Source of the DNA: Akkermansiaceae bacterium
GTDB lineage: Bacteria > Verrucomicrobiota > Verrucomicrobiia > Verrucomicrobiales > Akkermansiaceae
Assembly: GCA_018402445.1 (NCBI GenBank)
Contig: JAGYIT010000017.1
Location: 62,001-126,000 of the forward strand
Direction: 5' to 3'
Length of the DNA stretch: 64,000 nt
This document shows, one piece after another, positions 35,614 to 40,468 of the stretch. Below the pieces are notes generated by a model that was not told the origin of the DNA, made no database searches, and saw nothing but the letters and a program-made list of their open reading frames with translations. Position numbers and translations under genes: made by a program. Position 1 is the first letter of the stretch; every line of letters starts with the position of its first letter.

Positions 35614-36433
35614 CAATCCTCCTGTAATTTTGAGATCGGAAACAACGTGGCTCCGCCGGGCCATCACATCGCCTGAATTCGCCGAGCGCCTGGCACCTTT
35701 CGCCAAAGGCGGCGGCACCATCACGCTCGATCACGCCGCCGAGGCCTCGCATTCTTTCCTGACAGCCCTCGCCTGCACCGCCGCCGCCGACCACGGAAAA
35801 AAGCGCGCCTGGATCGTCCACGAATCCCCGCGCCAACGCGAACGCCTCGCCGCCGAACTCGAACTCTGGGGCGTCACCGCCCTCGTCCTGCCGGACGTGG
35901 GGGCGATCTTCGGTCGCCCTCCAGAGACGGACAGCGAGCTTCAGCTCGCCCCGGAAGCCCCGCCCTTGGAAGTCCAAGACCCCGAAACCGCCGCCGAGTG
36001 GTTCGCAATCCTGGAAACCCTCGCCGTCTCGGATTCCTTCGCCGTCCTCCTCGGCTCCGAGCAATTCCAGCAATACGCCCCCTCGCCCAACGCCCTCCTC
36101 TCCAACCGCACCCACCTCAAACCCGGCCTCATCCTCGATCCCACCGCCTTCGCGGAAACCCTCACCACCCACGGCTACGAGCGTTTCCCCACCGTCACCG
36201 CCCGCGGCCATTTCGCCATCCGCGGCGGCATCCTCGACCTCTTCCCCTTCCAATCCCCCCGCCCACTCCGCCTCGAATTCTTCGATACCGAACTCGAATC
36301 CATCCGCGAGTTCGACCTCAACTCCCAAGCCTCCACCCGCAAGGTCGCTCAGATCGATCTCCTCCTAACAGAACCTCCCGCCGTCGCCACCATCGCCGAT
36401 TACCTGAAACCGGATGACGCAGTCATCCGCATC

Positions 36434-36483
36434 GTGGCTGGGACTTGCAGTCCCAGTCCGTCGGAGGGACTTGCAGTCCCTCC
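36434..36483. repeat. REP-like double hairpin inside mfd, family A
   Basis: CTGGGACT-TGC-AGTCCCAG (36438-36456) then GGAGGGACT-TGC-AGTCCCTCC (36463-36483). The first 30 bases equal those of the intergenic copy at 6373. Read in mfd's frame it gives VAGTCSPSPSEGLAVPPS without a stop. The flanking Mfd sequence (DDAVIRI and FLITENTAENE) joins plausibly once it is removed. Confidence 0.85.
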
Positions 36484-38504
36484 CTCTTTCCTCATCACCG
36501 AAAACACCGCCGAAAACGAAATCGAAGAAGACTTCACCCTCGCCACCTACGCCTCCCCCCTCGGCACCTTCGACGCCGGCGACTTCGTCCTCGACGAGCT
36601 CCGCCGCGAATCCTTTTTCAAACAGCTCAACGAATGGCAGCGCGAGCAATGGGACATCGGCATCGTCTTCTCCACGAAAGGCGAACTCGAACGCTTCACC
36701 GAACTCTCCGGCAAAGACCTCGAGCGCGACCTCGGCCTCACACCCGTCATCGGCGAGCTGATATCGTCGTTCACACTACCGGTCACGAAACTCGCCGTCC
36801 TATCCTCCTCGGAACTCTTCGGCCGCTACCGCACTCCCGGGGCCGCCCGCCGCTCCTCGGTGGAAAAAGCCCGCGTCATCCGCGCCCGCGCCACCCTCGA
36901 CGACATCGAGCCCGGCGACCTCGTCGTTCACTACGAATACGGCATCGGGAAATTCAAGGGCATCGCCCAGGAAGAGGAAGGCGAGGAACTCCAGATCGAA
37001 TACAAGGACGGCTCCATCCTCTCCGTGCCGCTCGAGCAGGCTCACCTGTTAGGGAAATACGTCGGAGTCGGCGGCAAGACCCCGGACCTCAACAAACTCG
37101 GCAACGCCACCTGGCAGAAAAACCGCAAGTCCGCCGAGAAATCCATCCTCGATTACGCCGCCCGCCTGCTCCGCATCCAGGCCGAGCGCGAACACGACCA
37201 AGGCCATGCCCACCCGCCCGACACCCGCTGGATGTTCGAGTTCGAGCAGAGTTTCCATTTCACCGAAACCCCCGACCAGAAACAGGCGATCCTCGACACC
37301 AAGCACGACCTCGAAGCCCCCCGCCCCATGGATCGGCTCATCTGCGGCGATGTCGGTTTCGGAAAAACGGAAGTCGCCATCCGCGCCGCGTTCAAGGCGA
37401 TCACCGGCGGCAAACAGGCCGCCCTGCTCTGCCCCACCACCGTCCTCGCAGAGCAGCACTGGCGCACCTTCCGCGAACGCTTTTCCGACTACCCGATCCG
37501 CGTCGATCTCCTCAACCGTTTCCGCACCGCCAGCCGAAGTGAAAGCCACCATCCAAGGCCTCGCCGATGGCTCCGTCGATATGGTCATCGGCACCCACCG
37601 CCTCATCTCCGGCGATGTCGCCTACAAGGATCTCGGCCTCGCCATCGTCGATGAGGAACAGCGCTTCGGAGTCGCCCACAAGGAGAAATTCAAAGACCTC
37701 TTCCGCCAGATCGACGTCCTCACCCTCTCCGCCACGCCCATCCCGCGCACGCTCTACATGGCGCTCATGGGCGCGCGCGACATGTCCACCATCGACACCC
37801 CGCCGCCCAACCGCCTCCCCGTTTCCACCACCGTCACCGCCTACGACGAGCGCATCATCCGCGATGCCATCCGCCGCGAGATGAAACGCGGCGGCCAGGT
37901 CTTCTTCCTCCATAACCGCGTGAAAACCATCGAGATGGTTCATAAAAAACTCAAGGAACTCGTCCCCGAAGCCCGCGTCCTCGTCGGCCACGGCCAGATG
38001 GAAAAGCACGACCTCGAGAACGTCATGCACGCCTTCGTCAACCACGAGGCGGATGTCCTGCTCGCCACCACCATCATCGAAACCGGCATCGACATCCCCA
38101 ACGCCAACACCATCCTCATCGACCGCGCCGACCGCTTCGGCCTCGCCGATCTCTACCAGCTCCGCGGCCGCGTCGGTCGTGCCGGGGAAAAAGCCTACGC
38201 CATCCTCCTTCTCCCCCGGGAAATGATCACCCAAGGCGATGCGAGAAAACGCATCCACGCCATCAAGCAATACACCGCCCTAGGCTCCGGCTTCAAAATC
38301 GCCATGCGCGACCTCGAAATCCGCGGCGCAGGAAACCTCCTAGGCACCAAACAATCCGGCCACATCGCCCAAATCGGCTTCGACCTCTACTGCCAGCTCC
38401 TCCGCCAATCCATCGACCGCCTGAAAGGCAAGAAAGATCCCACGCTCCAGGAAACCACCTTCAAGGCTGATTTCATCGTTCCCACGGAAACGCAGTGGGT
38501 TTCT

Positions 38505-38600
38505 TCGAGACACAAGACACAAGACGACAAGACGCAAGAGCAGAGCTCTTCGAAATCAACAATCATCAATCAACAATCATCAATCGGAAATCAATCTTCC
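38505..38600. repeat. Low-complexity intergenic-type repeat inserted in mfd
   Basis: Consists of AGACACAAGACACAAGACGA-type repeats followed by AATCAACAATCATCAATC repeats, wording typical of intergenic DNA in related genomes. It lies in the D7-proximal linker of mfd and is translated as SSRHKTQDDKTQEQSSSKST and on. It contains no stop in the mfd frame. Confidence 0.7.
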
Positions 38601-38957
38601 GCCCCCCTCCCCGCCTTCATCCCCACCTCCTACCTCTCAGACGCCAAGCTCCGCATCCACGCCTACCGCGAACTCGCCGAAGCCAACACCCCCAAATCCA
38701 TCACCGCCCTCGAGAAAAACTGGATCGACCGCCACGGCCGCCTCCCCGAACCCGTTAAAAGCCTCCTCACCATCGCAAGAATCAAAGCCGAAGCAGCATC
38801 GAACAAAATCTCATCGGTGGAGATTTCAGGACAGAGGCTGATGCTGCAAAGAAACGGCAGCCCGATTCTCATGGATGGTTCCAGGTATCCGAGACTGATG
38901 AAATCGAAGCCCGAGGAGAAACTAAGCGAGGCGCTGGATCTGCTGAGGAATTTCTAA

Positions 38958-39145
38958 GGAGCAGGCGCGTCACCGCGTGGAGTAGGCGCGTCTCCGCGCC
39001 TTGAGTTCTAACCGGCGTCTCCGCCGGTCTCTCAAGAATATTCCTCACTGCGGGTGGAGACACCCGCAAGAACCCAAGGGGCGGTGACGCCCCTACTCCG
39101 GGCGGTGACGCCCCTGCTCCGCGCGCTTACGCCCCTGCTCCTTTA
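38958..39145. repeat. REP-like hairpin array, left of RAYT
   Basis: A series of hairpins between mfd and the RAYT gene: GGCGCG-TCTC-CGCGCC (38983-39000), ACCGGCG-TCTC-CGCCGGT (39011-39028), GCGGGTG-GAGA-CACCCGC (39050-39067), GGGGCG-GTGA-CGCCCC (39078-39093) and further CGCCCCT(A/G)CTCC units. GGAG(T/C)AGG on the left is the inverse of CC(T/C)(A/G)CTCC on the right, so the whole array is an imperfect palindrome. The mfd stop TAA abuts it. Confidence 0.85.
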
Positions 39146-39183
39146 CACTTGTCGCATCTGCACCTGACATTATTTTCAAACCC

Positions 39184-39798
39184 ATGTCCGATTTCCTCGA
39201 TCCCTCCGAAGAAATCAAGAAACACGGCTCCAAACTTCCTCATTGGCAGCAGGACGGCGTGATGCAGTTCGTCACCTTCCGCCTCGGTGATTCCCTCCCC
39301 CAAACCAAACTCACGGAGTGGATGGAAAGTCGCAAAACTTTTCTGGAACAGAACCCAAAGCCATGGACGGAGAAAACGGAATTCGAGTTCCACCGCCGCT
39401 TCACCCAGCGGTTCGAAGAATGGCTCGATGAAGGCGCGGGTTCCTGCCTCTTCCGCCAACCCGAAGCCCGCAAACTGATGGAGAGCATCCTCATGAAATT
39501 CCAAGGCGAGCGCTACATCCACGAGTCATGGGTCATCATGCCAAACCACCTCCATCTCCTTTTCAAACCGCTGGTGCCCATGGAAAAGCTCATTCAGGCA
39601 TGGAAAAGCACATTTTCCCATCGTTTCGGCCAAGGCTCCGTCTGGCAGGAAAGATACCGCGACACCCTCATCCGCGATCCGAAACACTTCGCCAACTGCG
39701 TCCGCTACATCCGCCGCAATCCGCGCCAACTTCCAAAGGAAACTTTCACCCTCTGGGAAAGTGACCGAGCAAAAAAGATCAGCGCATACAAGGAGTAG
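39184..39798 (+). CDS. REP-associated tyrosine transposase (RAYT)
   Basis: Single-strand DNA transposase of the IS200/IS605 Y1-like group that mobilises or maintains REP palindromes. 204 residues from the ATG at 39184. The HUH motif is seen in MPNHLHLLFK (about residues 119-128), and the catalytic Tyr is probably that in CVRYIRRNP (about residue 179). Upstream WQQDGVMQFVTFRLGDSLP is the typical N-terminal strand. It is flanked by two near-identical hairpin arrays in direct orientation. Its stop codon TAG is part of the first GGAGTAGG unit of the right array. Confidence 0.92.
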   Translation: MSDFLDPSEEIKKHGSKLPHWQQDGVMQFVTFRLGDSLPQTKLTEWMESRKTFLEQNPKPWTEKTEFEFHRRFTQRFEEWLDEGAGSCLFRQPEARKLMESILMKFQGERYIHESWVIMPNHLHLLFKPLVPMEKLIQAWKSTFSHRFGQGSVWQERYRDTLIRDPKHFANCVRYIRRNPRQLPKETFTLWESDRAKKISAYKE

Positions 39799-39980
39799 GC
39801 GCGTCTCCGCACGGAGTAGGCGCGTCTCCGCGCCTTGAGTTTCAGGGTGGCGTCTCCGCCACACTGAAAATATCTTCCTGACTACGGGTGGAGACACCCG
39901 TATGAACCCAAGGGGCGGTGACGCCCCTACTCCGGGCGGTGACGCCCCTACTCCGGGCGGCGACGCCCCTACTCCAGCGG
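39792..39980. repeat. REP-like hairpin array, right of RAYT
   Basis: Same order of units as the left array: GGAGTAGGCGCGTCTCCGC twice, GGGTGGCGTCTCCGCCAC, ACGGGTG-GAGA-CACCCGT, GGGGCG-GTGA-CGCCCC, and GGGCGGTGACGCCCCTACTC repeats. Stem bases differ between arrays in compensating pairs (for example GCGGGTG/CACCCGC versus ACGGGTG/CACCCGT), which indicates that the hairpin, not the sequence, is conserved. Confidence 0.85.
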
Positions 39981-39989
39981 CACGTCATC

Positions 39990-40468
39990 CGATCCAAAAC
40001 GAGTCCTCGCCGCTTGATCGGAATGCTCGCAGCCGAATATCCCGGGACTGAACACATTCTGCTTCTCGGCATGGCGAAGCTTGATGCAAACTCTCGTGCA
40101 CATGGCACTCCCTCTCTATCATCGAATCCATCGGCAGGAAACGATTCGGATCGGAAGCCATCCACCTTTTGCTCAGGAACCTTTTGGACAGATTCACCGT
40201 CCCCTCCGCCGGAACCGACGAAGCCAAACAAGCTTTCAATTACCTCGCCGGGGATTTCGAAGACGCCCTCCAAATCTCCGCAGCCGTTGCCAGCCAGGCA
40301 GATCACATTCTCACCAATGATGCCAGCGGTTTCACCAAATCCCCCATCTCAGTCCTCTCTCCCAAAGAGTTCCTTTTCATGTTAGCTAGCGGGGACCCGA
40401 ATGGATGGAAAGCACCCGAAATGACAGGCGCGGGGCATACGCGCGCACTCCATGGTTTTTCTCAGTAA
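39990..40468 (+). pseudogene. PIN-domain (VapC-like) protein relic
   Basis: The clear part is frame 2 from about 40157: AIHLLLRNLLDRFTVPSAGT, then GDFEDALQISAAVASQADHI, LTNDASGFTKSPISVLSPKE. This is the C-terminal half of a PIN-domain endoribonuclease (DFEDALQ; 'T-N-D/ADxF'). The N-terminal half with the first catalytic Asp is scrambled over several frames (YPGTEHIL... in 40020-40150). I read it as a decayed toxin gene; it starts just after the right hairpin array. Confidence 0.6.

Follow-up and report, generated by a model that had tools for sequence, protein, structure and literature searches.

REPtrons have been described from E. coli, Stenotrophomonas and Marinomonas (PMC6006769, PMC8266576; structure 4er8), and consist of an HUH/Y1 transposase, the RAYT or TnpA_REP, beside GTAG-tagged hairpins in inverted pairs, with a REP sequence that is specific to its RAYT. 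Subclasses of TnpA_REP are known from several phyla, and the same source describes REPtrons as elements that do not transpose as one unit (PMC6006769). Characterised RAYTs cut single-stranded DNA at a CT beside the REP (PMC8266576). REPs with a GTAG foot are known from the verrucomicrobium Opitutus terrae as well as from other species; they are positioned behind genes, were noted to supply stop codons with their ends and have been reported in frame inside ORFs (PMC3733652). In REPINs, inverted REP pairs form one long hairpin beside the cognate RAYT (PMC3116915, PMC8049555). The transposases of the IS200/IS605 group (ISDra2 and IS608 TnpA) have the Y1 fold and recognise hairpins as single-stranded DNA.

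The locus analysed here, found in a 64,000 bp stretch of a contig from an Akkermansiaceae bacterium (the window), resembles each of these systems and departs from each. It is very probably a REPtron, made up of a RAYT flanked by two cognate composite REP arrays and inserted lineage-specifically at the stop codon of mfd (Table 1). As in the known REPtrons, the RAYT has on both sides hairpins whose foot follows GT[AG]G, a sequence defining for this group; in the arrays the foot is GTAG in seven of the ten outer units and GCAG in the other three. The best match to the RAYT in both sequence and fold is 4er8. The locus differs in having a full composite palindromic array on each side, in units that are hardly dispersed in the genome, in array ends that hold the stop codon of the preceding gene and in an additional helical region at the N-terminus of the protein. 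With the GTAG REPs it shares the foot, the stop codon at the REP end and the position behind genes, but here the RAYT lies between two copies. Unlike the IS200/IS605 elements, it is represented by several divergent single copies rather than an identical multicopy IS and its hairpins are GTAG-tagged, and no tnpB-like ORF was found beside the RAYT.

Table 1. Features of the RAYT locus and related in-frame loci (window positions unless a contig is given)
Feature	Position	Strand	Evidence or remarks
mfd 3' part (transcription-repair coupling factor, TRCF domain)	37206..38957	+	Pfam TRCF E 2.4e-19, Helicase_C
Array 1 with ends TAAGGAG / CTCCTTTA	38955..39145	.	fold, repeats, unit pattern
Array 1 outer units	starts 38958, 38979 (+); 39099, 39120, 39141 (- strand starts)		
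Array 1 inner hairpins	39011-39028 and 39049-39068		
RAYT / TnpA_REP gene, 204 aa	39184..39798	+	H122-L-H124, Y175 catalytic residues
Array 2	39789..39979	.	fold, repeats, unit pattern
Array 2 outer units	starts 39792, 39813 (+); 39933, 39954, 39975 (- strand starts)		
Array 2 inner hairpins	39840-39869 and 39883-39902		
Unit sequence of the window arrays			GGAGTAGGCGCGTCTCCGCGCC
C-terminal remnant of PIN-domain gene, neighbour outside the element	40169..40468	+	Pfam PIN_3 E 1.8e-4, profile 80-113 of 115
In-frame RAYT in metH, own genome	L113, G000:C5:805490-812041		
In-frame RAYT in ispG, own genome	L140, G000:C4		
More distant Y1 protein in alaS, own genome	L159, G000:C17:15000-23000 (C17:18955)		
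In-frame RAYT loci across relatives	L100-L140		

The two arrays enclosing the RAYT gene are each 184 bp long (38958–39141 and 39792–39975) and are direct copies, with 85% identity over the whole length. The repeat falls into two blocks, 38956–39007 with 39790–39841 (92% identity) and 39038–39141 with 39872–39975 (89%), both spaced by 834 bp. Each array is itself palindromic (inverted repeats I2, I3, I5 and I6) and is built from two outer units, GGAG[TC]AGG plus a hairpin, on one strand and three on the opposite strand, with two inner hairpins (loops TCTC and GAGA) between them, giving 10 outer units and 4 inner hairpins in the two arrays together. The unit pattern was matched nine times in the window where 0.62 matches were expected, and none of 100 shuffled sequences contained as many. 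The PIN-domain gene remnant lies directly beyond array 2.

When folded as single-stranded DNA, arrays 1 and 2 reached -74.3 and -75.1 kcal/mol, respectively, where shuffled sequences averaged -36.7 and -36.0 (z -11.8 and -12.8), and none of 200 shuffles equalled the native energy. The folded shape is a single long nested hairpin topped by the two inner hairpins. In an alignment of the two arrays 96% of the cells pair and four base pairs are altered on both sides; sliding the structure by 1–3 columns left no double-sided changes, while 29 of 500 shuffles reached four. As two sequences are compared, these compensating changes support kept pairing but are not decisive. An earlier note, made from the letters of the window, had described a RAYT between two direct array copies, loops TCTC, GAGA and GTGA, compensating stem changes, the palindromic build of each array and a RAYT stop codon inside the first unit, and had proposed folding both arrays; each of these observations was reproduced, and the folding is far better than that of shuffles. 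The start of array 1 directly after the mfd TAA was absent from that note.

The RAYT protein matched the NCBIfam model REP_Tyr_transpos (REP-associated tyrosine transposase, NF047646) with an E value of 1.7e-15 and 57.2 bits, where the curated cut-off is 80, and the Pfam model Y1_Tnp (PF01797) with 19.2 bits, where it is 23. These scores mark a divergent member of the family, a cut-off being a threshold for naming rather than a defining biological feature. A profile built from 16 relatives found E. coli TnpA_REP (4er8) as its first match (E 8.9e-9) and ISDra2 with an E value of 1.8e-4, which places the window RAYT, as judged from sequence, nearer to TnpA_REP than to the IS200 transposases. The best PDB match of the AlphaFold model (pLDDT 88) was again 4er8 (E 4.5e-6), with modest TM-scores of 0.40–0.49 for the structure matches, and the model places two extra helices (residues 40–56 and 63–83) ahead of the HUH core. 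The HUH motif is kept in 63 of 64 homologues, as is the catalytic tyrosine, and the family is under purifying selection (omega 0.07–0.28, NG86). By analogy with its characterised relatives, the window RAYT would be expected to cleave single-stranded DNA. Cleavage at a constant CT ahead of the array, as in the characterised RAYTs (PMC8266576), was considered and rejected, as it fits at mfd (TTTCT/AAGGAG, with the slash at the putative cut) but fails in several sister copies (AT/AAGGAG).

Array 1 abuts the TAA of mfd (38955–38957) in the sequence AATTTC TAA GGAG. The RAYT gene ends AAG GAG TAG (39790–39798) within GGAGTAGG, its TAG being that of the GTAG in the first unit of array 2, and a solo unit at C5:871406 starts on the TAA of a 503-codon ORF, so that all three array starts in the genome are at gene ends. 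In five sister genomes, 27 outermost REPs were compared with the other GGAG sites of the same loci, and proximity to a stop codon was far above this background. The stop codon of an ORF of at least 100 codons lay within 12 nt of 13 of the 27 REPs, compared with 23 of 674 other sites, and directly adjoined nine of the 27, compared with 11 of 674. The three bases preceding GGAG were TAA in 13 of the 27. Array ends that carry a stop codon offer a simple reason for REPs collecting behind genes. The mfd gene in the window is frameshifted at 37500–37545 (ORFs 35630–37654 and 37206–38957) where relatives have one frame of about 1060–1170 codons, reflecting either an assembly error or a recent loss, and at 38495–38600 its linker holds an in-frame low-complexity insert with tandem AATCAACAATCATC, a stretch that is missing in several relatives.

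The mfd gene was present in 38 of the 39 genomes searched, including the genome under study, and is 84–96% identical in relatives. Thirty mfd loci could be compared, namely the window, one ended by a contig end and 28 others, and neither a RAYT nor a composite array followed the mfd stop codon in any of the 28 relatives. With the site empty in about 28 relatives the insertion is lineage-specific. In the closest relatives (G004, G005, G008, G015, G017 and G022) mfd ends AA(T/C)TT(T/C) TAG, compared with TAAGGAG in the window. One of these, G015, has a solo REP-like hairpin, TAGGAGCGGCCGTGTCTTCACGGC, on the same mfd stop codon (locus L164; fold -7.5, z -3.2), as if the site had been used twice. 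Because the gene downstream of mfd differs in every relative, and none keeps the one found here, neither the right-hand boundary of the insertion nor a target duplication can be read.

The nearest RAYT homologues (51–64% identity) were found at other loci, next to an Lrp-like gene, an acs-like gene, uvrA, polA and ffh/miaA, as read from the translated flanks, and have a palindromic array on either side. In the phylogeny the window RAYT grouped with other intergenic copies in a clade of 17 (SH-aLRT 97). Between the genome under study and G005 the RAYTs are 64% identical and mfd 91%, indicating that RAYT inheritance has not simply followed that of the genomes. The pattern at the mfd site would fit gain by transposition or by transfer; a history of loss among the relatives would require many such events and is less likely. 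Since about 28 relatives lack the RAYT and both arrays at this site and similar units occur at other stop codons, natural empty sites are available for testing transposition as a unit.

The genome under study (G000; 3.53 Mb in 17 contigs, 87.8% complete) was searched for dispersed units with two patterns and with blastn, which returned only the solo unit outside the two arrays. The earlier note had called the locus a compact REPIN-like cluster outside the Gammaproteobacteria. Inverted REP pairs are present, but the many dispersed copies of a REPIN population are not, and the cluster is not REPIN-like in that sense. The position outside the Gammaproteobacteria holds true but is not new, given the GTAG REPs of Opitutus terrae (PMC3733652) and the several phyla already sampled (PMC6006769). 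That note had also named two outcomes that would speak against it: the absence of units elsewhere, which the single solo unit comes close to, and a lack of folding gain, which is clearly contradicted by z scores of about -12. As the units are undispersed in this genome, the activity of the RAYT may be past or weak.

A second intergenic RAYT (L002, C10:113267) is 41% identical to the first and follows the same pattern, bordered on each side by an array type of its own that hardly occurs elsewhere. A near-identical second copy, which would be expected of an IS, was not found, with none exceeding 41% identity in the genome. With the nearest paralogue this distant and associated with different REPs, there is one full-length RAYT per REP type in this 87.8%-complete genome. 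About 20 further loci (L013–L040) contain many more Y1_Tnp genes of about 340–440 codons that probably belong to another TnpA_Y1 subclass; several have similar scores and may be copies. A search of genome_contigs for related RAYTs yielded one only, L099. In contrast to the genome under study, which had none, homologous units of the form GGAGNNNNGACATTCYTGTC numbered 166 in G006, 30 in G027, 28 in G002, 20 each in G012 and G015, 10 in G017 and six in G005, and the reversed control pattern gave zero in every genome. At one locus in G006 (L142, G006:C238) seven near-identical 38 bp tandem REP units precede the RAYT, and together with the 166 units this shows that a REP family has expanded in that sister genome.

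In the most likely mechanism under the REPtron reading, each GTAG-plus-hairpin unit would fold when the DNA is single-stranded, on the lagging-strand template or in a transcription bubble, and the RAYT would bind the GTAG foot and the hairpin. Y175 may then cut beside the foot or hairpin, the unit being rejoined elsewhere. Array ends of the form TAAGGAG...CTCC(T)TTA contain a stop codon, so that a copy landing on the 3' end of a gene would leave a working stop. The two flanking arrays are very probably copies of one array in which pairing was kept by compensating changes. The position of the cut and a joint movement of RAYT and arrays are likewise what we infer from this arrangement.

The direct copies would say nothing about a transposition unit if the array had been doubled by ordinary recombination, with a tandem RAYT–array block losing one RAYT. 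The two copies are in register with a single spacing of 834 bp, as such an event would leave them, but the array–RAYT–array build recurs in nearly every clade RAYT of other genomes and in L002, each with its own array sequence. A build inherent to the element explains this recurrence more readily than repeated independent duplications, and an origin by recombination is quite unlikely. It is very improbable that the arrays serve simply as intrinsic terminators, or form a structured RNA, with no relation to the transposase. Their strong folding and their position right behind stop codons suit such a role, but an Rfam search found no family at the gathering score, only chance matches of the long hairpins to miRNA models far below it, and the arrays are composite palindromes with GTAG feet, each RAYT having its own array type on either side.

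A domesticated, immobile RAYT, retained with its arrays for a host role such as a terminator or topology element at the end of mfd and autoregulated through array 2, is somewhat unlikely. The near absence of units elsewhere in the genome and the strong purifying selection on the family (omega as above) speak for it, and arrays at gene 3' ends could serve as terminators. However, a RAYT gene that is still mobile should be under selection too, the mfd site is empty in relatives while sister copies occupy different sites, and REPs are dispersed in sister genomes, with a solo copy in this one.

The sister clades of the REPtron RAYT are of higher interest than the window locus. About 40 of roughly 110 RAYT matches in relatives lie inside open frames that are 500 to 1622 codons long. 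As determined by reading the frames and scanning for domains, the hosts are leuS, carB, metH, ispG/gcpE, an Eco57I-type methylase, a DUF5107-TPR protein and glycosyltransferases; two frames (L121 and L127) are ended by contig ends and are probably leuS and ispG. The host domain is split around Y1_Tnp, the catalytic residues of the RAYT are intact and the RAYT part is under purifying selection (omega 0.07–0.28, NG86). Where the GTAG REPs in ORFs reported earlier are REPs only (PMC3733652), the sister clades carry a whole RAYT with its REPs. 'Unexpectedly long proteins' were previously set aside as fusions or annotation errors (PMC6006769). The open-access literature, whose coverage is incomplete, yielded no account of entire RAYTs lying in frame within genes, and the in-frame copies are presented as apparently undescribed rather than as new. 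They point to essential enzymes in which a catalytic domain accommodates an entire transposase, which for a bacterial transposase family would be a novel lifestyle.

On balance we favour the view that the window REPtron represents the intergenic branch of a RAYT lineage, other branches of which live on within the reading frames of essential or central genes such as metH, ispG, leuS and carB, embedded in conserved domains, translated and catalytically intact. This niche would resemble that of inteins, though with no protein splicing. Array ends that either hold or lack a stop codon would then be an adaptation to stop codons or to reading frames, and at the metH site RAYTs seem to have passed between species more quickly than the host gene itself, in the manner of homing. 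Eight relatives have an empty form of metH, ADWV..D(H/Y/F)IGGFVVGIHG, with 29–30 residues where carriers have 252–256. The clades of the RAYT tree track the host gene, with carB in one clade and two changes each for metH and ispG. In one pair of metH loci, L112 from G008 and L113 from the genome under study, dS is 0.07 in the RAYT compared with 0.48 and 0.62 in the metH flanks, and this single pair hints that the RAYT has been exchanged between metH alleles of different species.
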